Source: Hyphomonadaceae bacterium (GTDB lineage Bacteria; Pseudomonadota; Alphaproteobacteria; Caulobacterales; Aquidulcibacteraceae). Taken from it: a stretch of DNA of 64,000 bases. A model generated the notes under the pieces. That model had not been told where the DNA came from and made no database searches. It saw nothing but the letters and a program-made list of their open reading frames with translations. Shown piece after piece: positions 2,418 to 56,150 of this stretch. The translations under genes were made by a program, and so were the position numbers. Each line of letters starts with the position of its first letter. The stretch's first letter is position 1. Where the stretch lies: positions 1-64,000 of the forward strand of contig JAHDXR010000004.1 of the NCBI GenBank assembly GCA_023384105.1. The letters are read 5' to 3'.

Positions 2418-3914
2418 ATGCGCGCGATCCATAATTTCATCAACGGCCAAAGCGCGTCCGCCAGCGGCGGGCGCGCTGGCCGCGTTTACAATCCCAACAC
2501 CGGCGCACAGCAGGCCGAGGTCGCCTTTTCCGCGGCCAGGGACGTCGACGCCGCCGTCCAGGCCGCTCTGAAGGCGCAGCCGGAATGGGCCGCCACCAAC
2601 CCGCAGCGGCGCGCGCGCGTGATGTTCGCGTTCAAGGCGCTGGTGGAAAAGAACATGGACGAGCTGGCGCAACTGCTCTCGTCCGAACACGGCAAGGTGA
2701 TCGCCGACTCCAAGGGCGACATCCAGCGCGGTCTTGAGGTGATCGAGTTCGCCTGCGGCATCCCGCATGCGCTGAAGGGCGAATACACCGAAGGCGCGGG
2801 GCCGGGCATCGACGTCTATTCGATGCGCCAACCTCTGGGAGTTGTCGCCGGCATCACGCCGTTCAATTTCCCGGCCATGATCCCGATGTGGATGTTCGGC
2901 GTCGCCATCGCCTGCGGCAACAGCTTCATCCTGAAGCCGAGCGAGAAGGATCCGTCCGTCCCGGTGCGTCTCGCCGAACTGATGCTGGAAGCCGGCGCGC
3001 CCGCGGGCGTCTTGAACGTCGTGCACGGCGACAAGGAGGCCGTCGACGCCATCATCGCCCATCCCGACATCAAGGCGATCAGCTTCGTCGGCTCCTCCGA
3101 CATCGCCCACTACATCTACAGCCACGGCACGGCGAACAATAAGCGCGTGCAGGCCATGGGCGGCGCCAAGAACCACGGCGTCGTCATGCCCGACGCCGAC
3201 ATGGATCAGACCGTGAAGGATCTCGTCGGCGCCGCCTACGGTTCGGCCGGCGAACGCTGCATGGCGCTGCCGGTGGTCGTGCCCGTCGGCAAGAAAACAG
3301 CCGACGAACTGCGCGCGCGCCTCCTTCCCGAGATCGAGAAGCTGAAAGTCGGCGTCTCCACCGATCCTGAAGCGCAATACGGCCCGGTCGTGAGCGCGGC
3401 GCACAAGCAGCGCGTGGAGGATTACATCGCCCTCGGCGCCAAGGAGGGGGCCGAACTGGTGCGCGATGGCCGCGGCTTCAAGCTGCAGGGCTATGAGGAA
3501 GGCTTCTTCATCGGCCCCACGCTGTTCGACGGCGTGAAGACCGAAATGCGCACCTACCAGGAAGAAATCTTCGGACCCGTCCTGCAGATCGTGCGCGCCG
3601 AGAGCTTCGAGGAAGCGCTCGCGCTGCCGAGCAATCACCAATACGGCAACGGCGTCGCCGTCTTCACCCGCAACGGCCGCGCCGCGCGCGAGTTCGCGAG
3701 CCGCGTCAATGTCGGCATGGTCGGCATCAACGTCCCGATCCCGGTGCCGGTCGCCTACCATACTTTCGGCGGCTGGAAGCGCAGCGCCTTCGGCGACACC
3801 AACCAGCACGGCATGGAAGGCGTGAAGTTCTGGACCAAAGTGAAAACGGTGACGGCGCGCTGGCCGGAAGGCATGACGGATGACTCAAGCTTCGTCATTC
3901 CGACGATGCGGTGA
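2418..3914 (+). CDS. mmsA: CoA-acylating methylmalonate-semialdehyde dehydrogenase
   Basis: Oxidises methylmalonate semialdehyde to propionyl-CoA in the last steps of valine breakdown. At 498 residues it has the normal family length. It starts with the FINGQ strand typical of MmsA and has the nucleotide-binding segments ITPFNFPAMIPMWM and ILKPSEKDPS. The catalytic cysteine is in AYGSAGERCMAL. The GAKNHGVVMPDAD stretch, where most aldehyde dehydrogenases carry a catalytic glutamate (ELGG), is diagnostic for the CoA-acylating type. It heads a probable three-gene set with the hydrolase at 4052 and the dehydrogenase at 5304, although repeats separate the genes. Confidence 0.95.
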   Translation: MRAIHNFINGQSASASGGRAGRVYNPNTGAQQAEVAFSAARDVDAAVQAALKAQPEWAATNPQRRARVMFAFKALVEKNMDELAQLLSSEHGKVIADSKGDIQRGLEVIEFACGIPHALKGEYTEGAGPGIDVYSMRQPLGVVAGITPFNFPAMIPMWMFGVAIACGNSFILKPSEKDPSVPVRLAELMLEAGAPAGVLNVVHGDKEAVDAIIAHPDIKAISFVGSSDIAHYIYSHGTANNKRVQAMGGAKNHGVVMPDADMDQTVKDLVGAAYGSAGERCMALPVVVPVGKKTADELRARLLPEIEKLKVGVSTDPEAQYGPVVSAAHKQRVEDYIALGAKEGAELVRDGRGFKLQGYEEGFFIGPTLFDGVKTEMRTYQEEIFGPVLQIVRAESFEEALALPSNHQYGNGVAVFTRNGRAAREFASRVNVGMVGINVPIPVPVAYHTFGGWKRSAFGDTNQHGMEGVKFWTKVKTVTARWPEGMTDDSSFVIPTMR

Positions 3915-3921
3915 TGGCTTC

Positions 3922-4040
3922 ACCTCTCCCTCCGCGAGGGGGCGGGTGAGGGGGCGGGTGTCCGAATGAAGTGCTTGGTTCTGGAGCGCACCCCCTCATC
4001 CGGCGCTTCGCGCCACCTTCTCCCCTCGTGGGGGAGAAGG
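3922..4040. repeat. Palindromic interspersed repeat, family A, copy 1
   Basis: The gap between mmsA and the hydrolase gene is filled by a palindromic element. The left part (CTCTCCCTCCGCGAGGG and a GGGTGAGGGGGCGGGT tail) is answered on the right by CCCCCTCATCCGG, then CTTCTCCCCTCGTGGGGGAGAAGG, each part able to fold on itself and with the other. Related elements occur at 5121, 19980, 45003 and, inside a gene, 53307. The transcript would form strong hairpins between the two valine genes. Confidence 0.75.
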
Positions 4041-4051
4041 AAGGAGACTGA

Positions 4052-5113: not shown

Positions 5114-5120
5114 ACTTCAG

Positions 5121-5270
5121 CTCTCTCCCGTGAGGGGGAGAGGCCGCGCCGGATTTGATCCGGGGCAGGCGAGGGGGCGCGTGTCAGGACGCAGCACGAC
5201 CTTTCGCCCTGAACCCCGCCCCCTCATCCGGTCGCTCCGCGACCGCCTTCTCCCCCGCGCGGGGGAGAAG
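5121..5270. repeat. Palindromic interspersed repeat, family A, copy 2
   Basis: The gap before mmsB holds CTCTCTCCCGTGAGGGGGAGAG at the left and, at the right, CCCCTCATCCGGTCGC followed by CTTCTCCCCCGCGCGGGGGAGAAG. The right end matches copy 1 at 3991-4040 base for base over much of its length (CCCCTCATCCGG then a GC arm then CTTCTCCCC). Both copies lie directly upstream of a valine catabolic gene in the same orientation. Confidence 0.75.
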
Positions 5271-44834: not shown

Positions 44835-44999
44835 GGGCGGTTTCTGCGGCGTGCGAGAGGCGCTTTCATCCCTGGGACCGTATCATCTCTCTCGGGAGCT
44901 GGCTCTGTTCCGGACCGTGGTCTGGAGCACCTGGCGCCCACCTAGTCTTGCTAGGGTTCGAGAGGATGAGCATTCCTCACGGCGCACGTGGTTCCGCCC
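44835..44999 (+). ncRNA. ssrS: 6S RNA
   Basis: The 165-base segment between zapA and fau folds as 6S RNA. The closing stem pairs GGGCGG (44835-44840) with CCGCCC (44994-44999), then GCGTGCG with CGCACG. The inner strands hold CCTGGGACCG and GGACCGTGGTCTGGAGCACC around the large central bubble that mimics an open promoter, and CCTAGTCTTGCTAGG is an apical stem. 6S RNA binds sigma-70 RNA polymerase in stationary phase. The location zapA-6S-fau is a further strong argument. Confidence 0.85.
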
Positions 45000-45002
45000 A
45001 AC

Positions 45003-45137
45003 TCCTCCTCCGTGTGCGGGGGAGGCGCCGACCCCGGCGCAAAGGCGGGGGAAGCGGAGGGGGAAAGTCCGCCTGCCGTTTGCGTCGTCCCCCCTCAGTC
45101 ACGCTGCGCGCGACAGCTCCCCCGCAAGCGGGGGAGC
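45003..45137. repeat. Palindromic interspersed repeat, family A, copy 4, abutting fau
   Basis: Left arm CTCCTCCGTGTGCGGGGGAG (about 45005-45025), a purine-rich GGGGGAAGCGGAGGGGG, its complement-like CCCCCCTCAGTCACGC, then GCTCCCCCGCAAGCGGGGGAGC at 45116-45137. That last 22-base hairpin is identical to the one inside gltB at 53398-53419, and the preceding GACA is shared too. The fau ATG starts at the very next base, so the hairpin carries the only purine-rich (GGGGGAG) ribosome-binding sequence of fau. Confidence 0.85.
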
Positions 45138-45740
45138 ATGACGATTCCGGACCCCGCCCTCGAAGCCGCCAAGGCCGACGCGCGCATGCTGATGCGCGCC
45201 GCGCGCAACGCCGTCACGCCCGGCGACGCCTCGCTCAAGCTGATCGAACGCTTCCCGCTCGAACTGGCGCGGCTGTCGCCCGTCGCCGGCTATTGGCCGG
45301 TGGGCGGCGAAATCGACGACCGCCCGCTGCTCGCCGCGCTCGCCAAGGCCGGCCGCACCATCTGCCTGCCGCGGATGGAGACCCGCACCGGCCCGGCCCG
45401 CTTCCTCGCCTGGCGCGGGACGGAGGCGTTGAGCGCGGACGCGTTCGGCGTGCCGTCGCCGCCGCCCACCGGCGCCGATCTCGCGCCGCGCCTGCTGCTG
45501 GTCCCGCTGCTGGCGTTCGACCGCGCCGGGGGCCGTCTCGGCCAGGGCGGGGGCCATTACGACCGCATCATCTCGCTCTATCGCGCCCACGGCGCGGTGG
45601 CGGCGGGGCTCGCCTACGCCGAGCAGGAGATGGAGCGCGTCCCCACCGGTCCCCACGACGCCTGCCTCGACTGGGCGATCACGCCCGAAGAAGCGATCCG
45701 CTGCACGCGCATCGAGGGGCTGCGGGAGTTCAGCAGCTAG
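45138..45740 (+). CDS. fau: 5-formyltetrahydrofolate cyclo-ligase
   Basis: Converts 5-formyl-THF to 5,10-methenyl-THF. The 200-residue protein starts MTIPDPALEAAKADARMLMR. It shows VAGYWPVGGEIDDRPLLAAL, ICLPRMETR, LLLVPLLAFDRAGGRLGQGG and GGHYDRIISLYR (ATP-binding end). The frame is open upstream through the family A repeat and 6S RNA, but the protein family starts here. Translation probably starts from a site embedded in the repeat hairpin. Confidence 0.92.
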   Translation: MTIPDPALEAAKADARMLMRAARNAVTPGDASLKLIERFPLELARLSPVAGYWPVGGEIDDRPLLAALAKAGRTICLPRMETRTGPARFLAWRGTEALSADAFGVPSPPPTGADLAPRLLLVPLLAFDRAGGRLGQGGGHYDRIISLYRAHGAVAAGLAYAEQEMERVPTGPHDACLDWAITPEEAIRCTRIEGLREFSS

Positions 45741-50028: not shown

Positions 50029-51432
50029 GTGGCCGAACGCATGCAGAAATTCGTCTCTGTTGGGCAGAAATGGCCCGACAAGCGCCCCGCGACCGAGCGC
50101 GCGGGCGATTTCCACGAAATTTACCGGGAATTCATTGCCGAAAAAGCGGCCGTTCAGGCGGCGCGTTGCGCTCAGTGCGGCGTGCCGTTCTGCCAGAGCG
50201 GCTGCCCGCTTCAGAACAATATCCCCGACTGGCTCAAGCTGACGGCCGAGGGCCGGCTGCAGGAAGCGTACGAAGCCTCCGCCGCCACCAATCCGATGCC
50301 GGAAATCTGCGGCCGCATCTGCCCGCAGGACCGGCTCTGCGAAGGCGCGTGCGTGATCGAGCAGAGCGGCCACGGCGCGGTGACGATCGGCGCGGTCGAG
50401 AAGTACCTGACCGACAACGCCTGGCGCGAGGGCTGGGTCGCTCCGATCAAGCCGCTTGCGGAGCGGCGCGAAAGCGTCGGCATTGTCGGCGCCGGCCCCG
50501 CCGGCCTCGCCGCCGCCGAGCGCATGCGTCTGCGCGGCTACCGGGTCACGGTCTATGACCGCCACGACCGCATCGGCGGCCTGCTGATCTACGGCATCCC
50601 AAGCTTCAAGCTGGAAAAGGAGGTCGTGCAGCGCCGCGCCCAGCGGCTCATCGACGGCGGCGTGACGTTCGAACTCAATTGCGATGTCGGCGAAACCGTC
50701 AGCTTCGAAGATCTGCGTGCACGGCACGATGCGGTGCTGATCGCCGCCGGCGTCTACAAGCCGCGCCCGCTTACGGCCCCGCACGATCAAAGCGTGGTCG
50801 CCGCGTTCGACTACCTCATCGCCTCCAACCGCGTCGGCCTCGGCGACGACGTGCCGGACTTCGCCAGCGGCAGGCTCGACGCCAAGGGCCGCCGCGTCGT
50901 CGTCATCGGCGGCGGCGATACGGCGATGGACTGCGTGCGCACCGCGCGCCGCCAGGGGGCCAAGAGCGTCACCTGTCTCTATCGGCGCGACCGCGCCAAC
51001 ATGCCGGGCTCGCAGCGCGAGGTGGGCCATGCCGAGGAAGAGGGCGTCGGCTTCGACTGGCTGGCCGCGCCGAAATCGGTCAGCAAAGGCGCCGTCCGCG
51101 CCGCGCGCATGCATCTCGGCGCGCCCGACGCAAGCGGGCGCCGTTCGCCCGAGGAAGCCCCGGACGGCGCCTACGAAGCGCCGGCCGATCTCGTCATCGC
51201 CGCGCTCGGCTTCGATGCGGAGGATTTCAGCGGCTGGGGCGTCGCCGCCACGCGCTGGGGCACGATCGAGGTGAATCCGCTGACGTTCGCGACCAGCCAG
51301 CCCGGCGTGTTCGCCGCCGGCGACATCGTGCGCGGCGCCTCGCTCGTCGTCTGGGCCATCCGCGAAGGCCGCGACGCCGCCGACGCGATGCATGCGTGGA
51401 TTCAAGAACAAGCAAGAGTGGCTGCAGAATGA
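50029..51432 (+). CDS. gltD: Glutamate synthase [NADPH] small subunit
   Basis: Supplies electrons from NADPH to the large subunit. The 467-residue protein has two cysteine clusters for 4Fe-4S centres (CAQCGVPFCQSGCPLQNNIP and CGRICPQDRLCEGACV), the FAD site VGIVGAGPAGLAAAERM and the NADPH site VVVIGGGDTAMDCVRTARRQ. A C-terminal GVFAAGDIVRGASLVVWAI completes it. GTG start after GGAGGG. It precedes gltB and overlaps it by ATGA, the reverse of the E. coli gltBD order. Confidence 0.95.
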   Translation: MAERMQKFVSVGQKWPDKRPATERAGDFHEIYREFIAEKAAVQAARCAQCGVPFCQSGCPLQNNIPDWLKLTAEGRLQEAYEASAATNPMPEICGRICPQDRLCEGACVIEQSGHGAVTIGAVEKYLTDNAWREGWVAPIKPLAERRESVGIVGAGPAGLAAAERMRLRGYRVTVYDRHDRIGGLLIYGIPSFKLEKEVVQRRAQRLIDGGVTFELNCDVGETVSFEDLRARHDAVLIAAGVYKPRPLTAPHDQSVVAAFDYLIASNRVGLGDDVPDFASGRLDAKGRRVVVIGGGDTAMDCVRTARRQGAKSVTCLYRRDRANMPGSQREVGHAEEEGVGFDWLAAPKSVSKGAVRAARMHLGAPDASGRRSPEEAPDGAYEAPADLVIAALGFDAEDFSGWGVAATRWGTIEVNPLTFATSQPGVFAAGDIVRGASLVVWAIREGRDAADAMHAWIQEQARVAAE

Positions 51433-54400
51433 AGCGCGACCAATATGGACCGCCGGCGTCCTCGCCGGCCGGCGCGGCGCATGCCGGCGAGACGCCGGCG
51501 GTCCATGACGAGATCGCGCGCTATGTCGGCGAGCGCGCCAAGCTTGAAACGCACGGCCTCTACAGCGCCGCGCACGAGCGCGACGCCTGCGGCGTCGGCA
51601 TGGTGGTCTCGCTCGACGGCAAGCCGCGCCGCGACGTCGTCACCCTCGCCATCGCCGCGCTCAAGGCGGTCTGGCACCGCGGCGCCGTCGACGCCGACGG
51701 CAAGACCGGCGACGGCGCCGGCATTCTGATCGAGGCGCCGCAGGAATTCCTGCGCGAAGTCGTGATCCGCACCGGCCACACGCCGAAGGACGGCCAGGTG
51801 TTCGTCGGCCAGATCTTTCTGCCGCGGCTCGATCTCGGCGCCCAGGAGCGCGCGCGCGTCATCGTCGAAAGCGAGATCATCCGCGCCGGCTTCGTCATCT
51901 ATTCCTGGCGCCAGGTGCCGGTGAATATCGCCCAGATCGGCGAGAAGGCGAACGCCACTCGGCCCGAGATCGAGCAGATCCTGTTCTACGATCCCCAGGG
52001 CCGCGACAGCGTCACCGTCGACCGCGACCTCTTCATCGTCCGCCGCCGCATCGAAAAGCGCGCGCTGAAGGACAACATCACCGAGCTTTACGTCTGTTCG
52101 CTCTCGGCCAGGCGGCTCGTCTACAAGGGCATGTTCCTGGCCGCGCAGATCGACGCCTTCTATCCCGATCTGCGCGACGAGCGCTTCACCTCCTCGGTCG
52201 CACTCTATCACCAGCGCTATTCCACCAACACGTTCCCGCAATGGCGCTTGGCGCAGCCGTTCCGCATGCTCGCGCACAATGGCGAGATCAACACGCTGAA
52301 GGGCAACGTGAACTGGATGCGCTCGCACGAGGTGCGGATGGCGTCCGAAGCGTTCGGCGACGCCGATTCCGACGTGAAGCCGATCGTCCAGCCCGGCGGC
52401 TCGGATTCCGCGGCGCTCGACAATGTGTTCGAGGTGCTGGTGCGCGCCGGCCGCTCCGCGCCGATGGCGAAGTCGCTGCTGATTCCGGAGGCGTGGGCCA
52501 AGTCGCGCACGATGAAGGAAAGCCACCGCGCGCTCTACGCCTATTGCAACGCGGTGATGGAGCCGTGGGACGGCCCGGCCGCGCTCGCCATGTTCGACGG
52601 CCGCTGGGCCGTGGCCGGCCTCGACCGCAACGGCCTGCGCCCCCTGCGCTACGCGCTGACGCAGGACGGCTTGCTCGCCGTCGGCTCCGAAACCGGCATG
52701 TGCCCGCTCGACGACCGCGTCATCACCGAGCGCGGCCGCATCGGCGCCGGCCAGATGGTCGCCGTCGACACGCACGAAGGCCGGCTCTATCACCACGAGG
52801 AGCTGGTCGATGCGCTCGCCGCGCAGCACCCGTACGGCGAATGGCTGAAGAACGTCATCGATCTCGACAAGAGGCTCGAAGGCCCCGAGCCGCGCCTGTT
52901 CGGCGACCGCGCCGAGCTGCTGCAGCGCCAGGCCGCCGCCGGCTACACCATGGAAGACATCGAACTGCTGCTGCAGCCGATGCTCGAAGAGGGCAAGGAA
53001 GCCATCGGCTCGATGGGCGACGACGCGCCGCTGGCCGTGCTCTCCGAGCAGAACCGGCCGCTCTCGCATTATTTCCGGCAGAATTTCAGCCAGGTCACCA
53101 ATCCGCCGATCGATCCGCTGCGCGAAGGCCGCGTCATGAGCCTCGCCACGCGGTTCAAGAACCTCGGCAACATCCTCGCCCAGGACGAGGCGCAGTCGCG
53201 CGTCTACGTGCTGTCGAGCCCGATCCTCACCAACGGCATGTACGCGCGCCTGCTGCGGGAGCTGGGCGACGACGCCGTCAGGATCGACTGCACCTTCGCC
53301 GTTAATCCTCCCCCGCAAGCGGGGGAGGTCGCGAGCGGAGCGAGCGGGAGGGGGGTGTCGACGACGTCCCCCTCGGTCTCGCGCTCCGCGTTCGACAGCT
53401 CCCCCGCAAGCGGGGGAGCGCACGACGTCGGCGCTGCACTGCGCCAAACCATCGCCCGCATCCGCGCCGAGGCGGAACAGGCGGTCGCCTACAACAACCG
53501 CTCGCACATCGTGCTCACCGACGAGGGCCAGGGACCGGACCGCATCGCCTGTCCGATGATCCTGGTCGCCAGCGCCGTGCATTCGCATCTGGTGGCGAAG
53601 GGCCTGCGCTCGTTCTGCTCGATCAGCGTGCGCAGCGCCGAGTGCCTCGATCCGCACTACGCCGCCGTGCTGATCGGCTGCGGCGCCACGACGGTGAATC
53701 CCTATCTCGCCTTCGACACCATCGCCGAGCGCACCGCCCGCAGCCTCTCCGGCGATCTGACGCAGGAGCAGGCCGCCGCGAACTATCGCGCCGCCCTCGA
53801 AGGCGGGCTGCTCAAGATCGTTTCGAAGATGGGCATTTCGGTGATCTCGTCCTATCGCGGCGGGCTCAATTTCGAGGCGCTGGGCCTGTCGCGCGCGCTG
53901 GCGGACGAGTTCTTCCCCGGCCTCACCAGCCGCATCTCCGGCATCGGCCTCTCCGGCCTTGCGCTCGAAGCTGCGGAGCAGCACGCCAAGGCCTATGACG
54001 GCGCGCTCGCGGCGCTGCCCGTCGGCGGGCTGTATCGCCTGCGCGCGAGCGGCGAACGCCATGCGCTCGAATCCACGCTGATCCACCAGCTGCAGCGCGC
54101 TTGCGACACCGGCGACTACAAGGCGTACCTGAAATACGCCGAAGCCGTGCGCGAGCGCCGGCTGAACCAGCCGATCCAACTGCGCGATCTCCTGGAAATC
54201 CGCGAAGAGAAGATGCGCCCGACCCCGCTCAGCGAGGTCGAGAGCGTCAACGACATCCGCAAGCGCTTCCTCACGCCCGGCATGAGCATGGGCGCGCTGA
54301 GCCCGGAGGCGCACGGCGCGCTGAACATCGCCATGAACCGCATCGGCGCGCGCAGCGTCAGCGGCGAGGGCGGCGAGGATCCCGAACGCTACAAGCCGCT

Positions 54401-56150
54401 GGCCAACGGCGACGACGCCAATTCCGCGGTGAAGCAGATCGCCTCGGGCCGCTTCGGCGTCACCGCCGAATATCTGAACCAGTGCCGCGAGATCGAGATC
54501 AAGATCGCCCAGGGCGCCAAGCCCGGCGAGGGCGGCCAGCTCCCCGGATTCAAGGTCACCGAACTGATCGCGCGCCTGCGCCACGCCACGCCCGGCGTCA
54601 CGCTGATCAGCCCGCCGCCGCACCACGACATCTACTCGATCGAAGATCTGGCCCAGCTGATCTACGATCTGAAGCAGATCAACCCGGTGGCGCGCGTCAC
54701 CGTGAAGCTGGTGGCGCAATCGGGCATCGGCGCGGTGGCCGCGGGCGTCGCCAAGGCCGGCGCGGACACGATCCTCGTCTCCGGCCATTCCGGCGGCACC
54801 GGCGCCAGCCCGCAGACCTCGATCAAGTATGCGGGCATCCCGTGGGAGATGGGCCTCGCCGAAGCGCATCAGGTGCTGATGCTCAACAACTTGCGTCACC
54901 GCGTGCGGCTGCGCACCGACGGCGGCATCCGCACCGGCCGCGACGTCGTCGTCGCCGCCATTCTTGGCGCGGAGGAGTTCGGCATCGGCACGGCGTCGCT
55001 CATCGCCATGGGTTGTCTCATGGTGCGCCAGTGCCATTCCAACACCTGCCCGGTGGGCGTCTGCACCCAGGACGAGGAGCTGCGCAAGCGCTTCAGCGGC
55101 ACCCCGGAGAAGGTCGTCAACCTGATGAGCTTCATCGCCGAGGAAGTGCGTGAACTCCTCGCTCTCATCGGTTTCCGCCGCCTGGAGGAGGTGATCGGCC
55201 GCACCGACCTCATCGAACAGATCAGCCGCGGCGCCGAGCATCTCGACGATCTCGACCTCAACCCGCTGCTGGTGCGCGTCGACAGCCCCTATCCGGCGCA
55301 CTGCACCCAGCTCGGCCGCAACGAGCCGCCGCTCTCGCTCGACATCGAGTTCATCAACGAAGCGCCGGCCTTCTTCGAGCGCGGCGAGAAGCGCCAGCTC
55401 GACTTCGCCGTGCGCAACACCCAGCGCGCCATCGGCACGCGCGCGGCCGCCCATGTCGTGCGCAAGTTCGGCATGGACGCGCTGCCGGAGGGCCAGCTCA
55501 GCATCAATCTGCGCGGTTCGTGCGGTCAGAGCCTCGGCGCCTGGCTGGTGCAGGGCATCGCGCTGCACGTCACCGGCGACGCCAACGACTATGTCGGCAA
55601 GGGCCTCTCCGGCGGCCTCATCACGCTGAAGCCCGCGCCGGAGGAGGCGAACCGCCTCGGCGCCATTATCGGCAACACCTGCCTTTACGGCGCAACCGGC
55701 GGCAAGCTGTTCGCCGCCGGCCTCGCCGGCGAACGCTTCGCCGTGCGCAATTCGGGCGCCGTCGCGGTGGTGGAAGGCGCGGGCGCGAACGCCTGCGAAT
55801 ACATGACCGGCGGCGTGATCGCGATCCTGGGCGCCGTGGGCGACAATTTCGGCGCCGGCATGTCGGGCGGCATGGCCTTCGTCTATGACGAAGCCGGACG
55901 GTTCGAGCAGCTTCTGAACGGCGACAGCGTCGTCGCCCAGCGCATTGCCTCGGCCCACTGGGAAGGCGTGCTCAAGGCGCTGATCGAAGAGCACGTCCAG
56001 CGCACCGGTTCGCCTCGCGCCAAGCACATGCTGGCGCACTGGAAGCAGGCGCGCGCCCGCTTCTGGCAGGTCTGCCCGAAAGAGATGCTGCCGCGCCTGA
56101 AGCATCCGCTCAGCGACAAGGCCCCGGCCGCGGCGGGCGCGGCCGCGTAG
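51429..56150 (+). CDS. gltB: Glutamate synthase large subunit, with two in-frame repeat insertions
   Basis: Makes two glutamates from glutamine and 2-oxoglutarate. The 1573-residue product has the nucleophile Cys54 in HERDACGVGMVV (amidotransferase domain, after removal of a propeptide), LKAVWHRGAVDADGKTGDGA, RYSTNTFPQWRLAQPFRMLA, FMN-domain motifs (GMSMGALSPEAHGALNIAMN, EGGQLPGFKV, SGHSGGTGASPQTS) and the 3Fe-4S cysteines CHSNTCPVGVC. Residues 6-26 and about 627-664 are encoded by interspersed DNA repeats of families B and A, without loss of frame. All catalytic segments are intact, so it should be active. Confidence 0.95.
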   Translation: MKRDQYGPPASSPAGAAHAGETPAVHDEIARYVGERAKLETHGLYSAAHERDACGVGMVVSLDGKPRRDVVTLAIAALKAVWHRGAVDADGKTGDGAGILIEAPQEFLREVVIRTGHTPKDGQVFVGQIFLPRLDLGAQERARVIVESEIIRAGFVIYSWRQVPVNIAQIGEKANATRPEIEQILFYDPQGRDSVTVDRDLFIVRRRIEKRALKDNITELYVCSLSARRLVYKGMFLAAQIDAFYPDLRDERFTSSVALYHQRYSTNTFPQWRLAQPFRMLAHNGEINTLKGNVNWMRSHEVRMASEAFGDADSDVKPIVQPGGSDSAALDNVFEVLVRAGRSAPMAKSLLIPEAWAKSRTMKESHRALYAYCNAVMEPWDGPAALAMFDGRWAVAGLDRNGLRPLRYALTQDGLLAVGSETGMCPLDDRVITERGRIGAGQMVAVDTHEGRLYHHEELVDALAAQHPYGEWLKNVIDLDKRLEGPEPRLFGDRAELLQRQAAAGYTMEDIELLLQPMLEEGKEAIGSMGDDAPLAVLSEQNRPLSHYFRQNFSQVTNPPIDPLREGRVMSLATRFKNLGNILAQDEAQSRVYVLSSPILTNGMYARLLRELGDDAVRIDCTFAVNPPPQAGEVASGASGRGVSTTSPSVSRSAFDSSPASGGAHDVGAALRQTIARIRAEAEQAVAYNNRSHIVLTDEGQGPDRIACPMILVASAVHSHLVAKGLRSFCSISVRSAECLDPHYAAVLIGCGATTVNPYLAFDTIAERTARSLSGDLTQEQAAANYRAALEGGLLKIVSKMGISVISSYRGGLNFEALGLSRALADEFFPGLTSRISGIGLSGLALEAAEQHAKAYDGALAALPVGGLYRLRASGERHALESTLIHQLQRACDTGDYKAYLKYAEAVRERRLNQPIQLRDLLEIREEKMRPTPLSEVESVNDIRKRFLTPGMSMGALSPEAHGALNIAMNRIGARSVSGEGGEDPERYKPLANGDDANSAVKQIASGRFGVTAEYLNQCREIEIKIAQGAKPGEGGQLPGFKVTELIARLRHATPGVTLISPPPHHDIYSIEDLAQLIYDLKQINPVARVTVKLVAQSGIGAVAAGVAKAGADTILVSGHSGGTGASPQTSIKYAGIPWEMGLAEAHQVLMLNNLRHRVRLRTDGGIRTGRDVVVAAILGAEEFGIGTASLIAMGCLMVRQCHSNTCPVGVCTQDEELRKRFSGTPEKVVNLMSFIAEEVRELLALIGFRRLEEVIGRTDLIEQISRGAEHLDDLDLNPLLVRVDSPYPAHCTQLGRNEPPLSLDIEFINEAPAFFERGEKRQLDFAVRNTQRAIGTRAAAHVVRKFGMDALPEGQLSINLRGSCGQSLGAWLVQGIALHVTGDANDYVGKGLSGGLITLKPAPEEANRLGAIIGNTCLYGATGGKLFAAGLAGERFAVRNSGAVAVVEGAGANACEYMTGGVIAILGAVGDNFGAGMSGGMAFVYDEAGRFEQLLNGDSVVAQRIASAHWEGVLKALIEEHVQRTGSPRAKHMLAHWKQARARFWQVCPKEMLPRLKHPLSDKAPAAAGAAA
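51444..51506 (+). repeat. Family B repeat embedded in frame in the gltB propeptide
   Basis: TATGGACCGCCGGCGTCCTC opens it and GAGACGCCGGCGGTCCAT closes it. The arms match intergenic copies at 29885, 35112 and 58640. It is exactly 63 bases and codon-aligned, encoding residues 6-26 (YGPPASS... to ...ETPAVH) of GltB, before the nucleophilic Cys54. No stop or frameshift is introduced. Confidence 0.85.
53307..53419 (+). repeat. Family A repeat embedded in frame in the gltB central domain
   Basis: Hairpin CCTCCCCCGCAAGCGGGGGAGG (53307-53328) and hairpin GCTCCCCCGCAAGCGGGGGAGC (53398-53419) flank GCGAGCGGAGCGAGCGGGAG and CGTCCCCCTCGGTCTCGCGC. The second hairpin is identical to that at 45116-45137 before fau. 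It encodes about residues 627-664 (NPPPQAGEVASG... to ...FDSSPASGGA) in a loop between a beta strand (DCTFAV) and a helix (AALRQTIARIRAEAEQAV). Confidence 0.88.

Follow-up and report, generated by a model that had tools for sequence, protein, structure and literature searches.

Among the Alphaproteobacteria, repeats of about 100 bp with large palindromes are represented by the rhizobial RIME and the Caulobacter CIR, the latter containing CcrM GANTC sites. Other palindromes lie inside genes. The parts of the 2024 MITE review and of Di Nocera et al. 2013 (PMC3733652) that deal with Rickettsia palindromic elements describe them as repeats of about 150 bp, found in frame in unrelated metabolic genes and predicted to produce translational fusions. 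In its sections on intragenic REPs of the CGTC/GTAG type, the latter paper reports palindromes of 20-40 bp, single or in dimers and groups, within ORFs, many of them in genes of DNA synthesis and repair including uvrA, uvrB, and dnaE2. In recB, two Xanthomonas species have them at nearly the same position, and other genes are struck at different sites (PMC3733652).

We analyzed a window of 64,000 nucleotides from a Hyphomonadaceae bacterium (positions 1 to 64,000 of contig JAHDXR010000004.1), in which the gene gltB carries a copy of a palindromic repeat that we call family A. The unit measures some 100-145 bp; GC-rich hairpins form its two ends and enclose inverted repeats. By description, family A is like the Rickettsia elements in being multicopy, palindromic, and in frame in unrelated conserved genes, and unlike them in having a GC-rich environmental bacterium as host. 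When set against CIR as described above, the gltB copy has no GANTC, and we rejected its assignment to them. Compared with the CGTC/GTAG REPs as presented in those sections, family A is a two-hairpin unit of greater length and its sites in UvrC, UvrA, and UvrD recur within the genus. A limited search of open-access papers gave none on family A or on in-frame palindromes in Hyphomonadaceae. The kind of element is already known from Rickettsia palindromic elements and intragenic REPs; what is unexpected here is its recurrence in excision-repair genes.

The gltB insert and the corresponding site in relatives

The features of the window on which the analysis bears are the following:

44838-44998: 6S RNA (Rfam match)
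45002..45139, + strand: second family A copy of the window (77 bits with the R1 covariance model)
51429..56150, + strand: gltB, glutamate synthase large subunit, with ATG at 51429 (translation; PDB relatives 6s6s and 1ea0)
51444..51506, + strand: family B palindrome, in frame close to the N-terminus of GltB and ahead of Cys54; the same palindrome flanks a Y1 transposase gene
53305..53421, + strand: family A element, full length and in frame (113.8 bits with the R1 covariance model, which was built from 24 family A copies, this one included)
53307..53328, + strand: left hairpin, CCTCCCCCGC-AA-GCGGGGGAGG, exact arms
53330..53396, + strand: inner inverted repeats, which pair with one another in the minimum-energy fold (evidence: fold and family alignment)
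53398..53419, + strand: right hairpin, GCTCCCCCGC-AA-GCGGGGGAGC, exact arms, same 22-mer at 45116

The preliminary description had announced a complete family A element with both hairpins in gltB, and both are there, each with 10-base arms that pair exactly around AA. It had also noted that the right hairpin is the same over 22 bases as the one before fau: this 22-mer has just two occurrences on the + strand of the window, 45116 and 53398, which are identical over 27 bases. The in-frame stretch, estimated at about 38 residues, has 39 by translation (GltB residues 626-664). They are rich in Pro, Ser, Gly, and Ala, and are flanked by a strand (IDCTF) and a helix (ALRQTIARI). The element was correctly placed within gltB; of the central domain and the catalytic core region, both named there, we take the site to be in the former. 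In the alignment with PDB chain 6s6s, the site falls between residues 617 and 616; the chain is aligned to query residue 630 and resumes at 668 (the query being numbered from its second residue), so that most of the insert is unmatched. The 113-nt RNA of the element folds with a z of -6.5, and none of 200 shuffles was equally good. The fold of minimum energy pairs the left with the right hairpin instead of closing each by itself; this end-to-end pairing follows from the fact that both ends of family A are themselves palindromic.

An alignment of GltB homologues, which had been proposed as a check, revealed a short empty site in all of the 107 other ORFs that span it. These have 13-18 residues between IDCTF and LRQ (16 or 17 in 101 of them) where the GltB of the window has 52, i.e., a net gain of 35 codons (105 nt). 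The ORFs come from two sets of 27 and 80 loci, with ten genomes in both and hence at most 97 genomes, and the larger set consists of the 80 best among the relatives found, which number at least 560. The nearest GltB among the 107 is 88-89% identical and lacks the insert; within the best 80 of at least 560, the closest relative is Hyphomonadaceae bacterium ES-bin-98. When 61 genomes were searched (own genome included), 54 had a GltB match. In relatives with both halves of GltB, the match is interrupted around the insert. The exception is genome G015, excluded from the 107 because of an assembly frame break at the site, where the match continues into that break and direct inspection gave a short loop too. 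We also looked in close relatives for an equally long loop of unrelated sequence, and it is absent from all 107 ORFs. Compared with four relatives, the gltB junction shows no target-site duplication. The net gain of 105 nt from an element of about 114 nt implies that some 9 nt would have been lost at the site.

The structure prediction proposed alongside gave a low-confidence loop at the insert. We modeled GltB residues 455-830 with AlphaFold, using 46 relatives, and Foldseek matches the model to the glutamate synthase large chain (6s6s, 2vdc, 1ea0). The insert corresponds to model residues 172-210, preceded by a strand (168-170) and followed by a helix (213-233); pLDDT is below 50 at 183-209 and above 80 in blocks 141-170 and 211-340. 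By itself a low pLDDT says little, since the conserved residues 73-116 and 348-370 of the model are also below 50 (mean pLDDT 71.8). Together with the short loop of the 107 ORFs, it argues for a lineage-specific insertion that, judging from the model, probably persists as a disordered loop. The insert of gltB is thus real, lineage-specific, and in frame.

That gltB holds a second repeat family was also correctly announced. Both families are palindromic, multicopy, and in frame in this gene, and family B, with 96 matches in the genome (both strands counted), is the one that flanks the Y1 gene of the genome. Its gltB copy lies before Cys54, in what is presumably the cleaved propeptide. It should therefore be absent from the mature enzyme, which makes its presence less surprising.

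Families A and B across genomes

Family A occupies at least 39 distinct places in the 3.67 Mb of the genome (61 covariance-model rows), a lower bound since 150 of 6401 first-look candidates were scored with the model. Two weak matches in the window, at 3921-4041 and 5120-5270 (E about 4e-4 to 6e-4), are possibly decayed copies or related repeats. The copy at 45002 begins 4 positions past the 6S RNA match (region 44838-45139) and could alter the 3' end of 6S RNA or the transcript of the next gene. Above the gathering score, Rfam has no family for family A, 6S RNA being its sole match in the window, and the plasmid collection gave no family A match at E 1e-5.

Family B looks like the REP of the Y1 (RAYT-like) transposase of the genome: the only Y1/RAYT match has family B palindromes on both sides (L189:3104-3195 and 3756-3851), and similar hairpins are found near Y1 genes of relatives (L447, L448, L451, L456). 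Family A was not found beside this gene. The genus has 34 Y1 places; at 30 of them, the family A model gave six weak rows in four loci, the best of them (L437, 39.6 bits) about 0.8 kb away from the Y1 gene. The own Y1 gene and these 30 places give no support for Y1/RAYT as the mobilizer of family A, and none of them tied a transposase to it. One of the genomes (G006) has a 24.5-bit family A match with two CCCTCTCCC hairpins close by a Y1 fragment (L452:1323-1473). This related two-hairpin element may have a RAYT link, and its hairpins are a possible lead to the mobilizer of other palindrome families.

To count copies within coding sequences, we used the codon-position bias of the flanks in one open frame, blind to gene names, and named the genes by HMM afterwards. 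For the own genome, copies were picked by eye and then filtered for bias on at least one side; for the relatives, the stricter demand was bias on both sides. Eight of the 39 places of the own genome were accepted: gltB, uvrC, putA, uvrA, a uvrD/pcrA-type helicase, mnmG, an E2 acyltransferase, and pdhB, where the helicase and the E2 protein do not reach the NCBIfam cut-offs and are identified by Pfam domains. In three relatives (G009, G019, G021), 7 of 87 places are in frame: priA, leuS, E2 (also below the cut-offs), uvrC, a chromate transporter, a ligase-associated DNA-damage DEXH helicase, and queG. An additional copy is in frame at the gltB N-terminus of G021; like pdhB, whose upstream flank has no bias, it was accepted through HMM support only. 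This gives 16 copies within coding sequences in four genomes, beyond which family A was seen in uvrC of G006 and dnaX of G010. The gltB copy of G021 is near the position of family B in the window (L231, G021:C1:790500-800500; L346), and the queG copy lies a short distance downstream of the same gene. Two candidates of the own genome were rejected. One (G000:C22:34985) is a weak partial match (E 0.003) in the opposite sense with good codon bias on both sides, dropped since its ORF has no NCBIfam match. At the other (G000:C24:193072), taken at first for an interrupted gene, one ORF ends just before the element and another starts just after it.

The empty gltB sites and the in-frame copies in other conserved genes bear out the earlier proposal that such elements can enter coding sequence and persist there if the frame is preserved. 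Family A is very probably a non-autonomous mobile palindromic repeat, one copy of which inserted in gltB and survived owing to an open frame and a tolerant loop. The family would have spread through a genus of Caulobacterales/Hyphomonadaceae, presumably by a transposase acting in trans. The gltB insertion would date from after the lineage split from all sampled relatives, and the copy would survive by having entered the loop between IDCTF and the helix in a stop-free frame. The insert would be translated and nearly neutral. The same filter would explain the copies in uvrA, uvrC, the uvrD/pcrA-type gene, mnmG, putA, pdhB, and E2.

Copies in uvrA, uvrC, and uvrD

Three of the eight in-frame copies of the own genome are in uvrA, uvrC, and a uvrD-type gene. 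If insertion in coding DNA were uniform, and with assumed gene lengths, at least three of eight would fall in uvrABCD with a probability of about 1.4e-6. This class of genes was picked after seeing it, and Di Nocera et al. 2013 (PMC3733652) had reported repair genes in the sections cited above. A simple tolerance filter would not predict such a concentration.

The sites were then compared between genomes. At the UvrA site, family A is present in 3 of the 28 genomes that could be read in one frame (G000, i.e., the own genome, G003, and G012) and absent from 25; two further genomes could not be read. At the UvrC site, 23 of 25 genomes tried were extracted, with five more uvrC loci outside this step. 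Family A is found in 5 of the 23 (with a fold z of only -1.2 in G023) and other palindrome-like inserts in 12, whose fold z, relative to codon shuffles, ranges from -2.3 to -8.7. The loop is 16-25 residues long in five genomes, and G002 has an unstructured one of 36. The UvrD site has inserts of other kinds in G003, G005, G010, and G022 (z from -6.7 to -12.8), a weaker one in G025, and only a few residues in 13 relatives. The insert of G011 in uvrC shares DNA with family A loci, and those of G010 and G022 in uvrD share DNA with uvrC inserts of other genomes. One UvrC loop (L357-L386) and one UvrD loop (L387-L416) carry palindrome-like inserts that differ between species, even between close relatives.

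On the UvrA tree, of which 9 of the 26 inner branches are well supported, the presence of family A in uvrC requires three changes, a number as low in 16 of 500 label shuffles. This suggests that it was partly inherited (G019 with G023) and is partly scattered. Between the uvrC elements of G019 and G023, the latter a single-contig MAG in which homopolymer errors are possible, small indels change the peptide and the frame stays open, as expected if only the frame matters.

One might see in the UvrA, UvrC, and UvrD loops preferred landing sites, re-used by several palindromic families with turnover between close relatives and causally linked to excision repair. Hairpin or cruciform DNA would then be a substrate of excision repair or a signal to it, and either insertions altering UvrABC or UvrD would shift the survival of the elements or repair factors would guide insertion. 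We regard this as unlikely.

Orientation, alternative explanations, and significance

The copies within coding sequences are mostly in the sense orientation: 15 of 16, where the open frames seen in 101 non-CDS copies predict a fraction of 0.578 (p = 0.002), or 15 of 17 when the dropped match G000:C22:34985 is included. The set comprises 30 own places, the 39 minus the 9 that were weakest or partial, and 87 in G009, G019, and G021, at E <=1e-5. The strand was that of the better model score; leuS tied on both strands, and priA, the sole opposite-sense copy, scored 2.0e-18 against 2.8e-15. Among the 101 non-CDS copies, those between codirectional genes also lean to the sense orientation (33 sense, 19 antisense, p = 0.07), so the bias may partly stem from insertion or transcription rather than from coding.

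A sense bias in excess of what stop codons predict, together with the concentration in repair genes, would fit an adaptive insert, whose peptide or RNA hairpin tunes the activity or expression of GltB, the repair-gene copies being kept similarly. Yet the gltB insert is confined to one lineage, the sister genomes G019 and G023 have very different uvrC peptides in a frame that stays open, and the same loop is filled by other palindromes in other relatives, which together make adaptation quite improbable. An artefact of assembly or binning that stitched a repeat into gltB might be suspected in a draft genome of 28 contigs with a multicopy repeat. It is very improbable, given that the flanks are the two halves of one gltB, ordered and in frame, that, elsewhere in the genome, the DNA closest to this copy matches it at 80% identity along most of its length, and that there are more in-frame cases in the own and other genomes. 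Pro/Ser/Gly-rich loops being common, the loop could in principle be ancestral and hypervariable, resembling the repeat by composition only, which is hardly credible given its exact hairpins at both ends, the 32 genomic DNA matches to it (itself included, both strands counted, 40 of 58 candidates scored), and the short, near-constant loop of relatives.

As a probably mobile repeat kept in what would be a tolerant loop, the gltB copy of family A is a fresh case of a little-studied route by which proteins gain extra segments. In the parts of the literature cited above, most accounts of in-frame palindromic inserts concern Rickettsia, an intracellular lineage for which tolerance is easily invoked. 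A GC-rich environmental genus with 30 genomes, where filled and empty sites occur together, makes it possible to test directly if such inserts are neutral filler. The pattern in repair genes, reported in 2013 for distant bacteria in the sections cited (PMC3733652), is met again here, and its reason can be tested in this genus.
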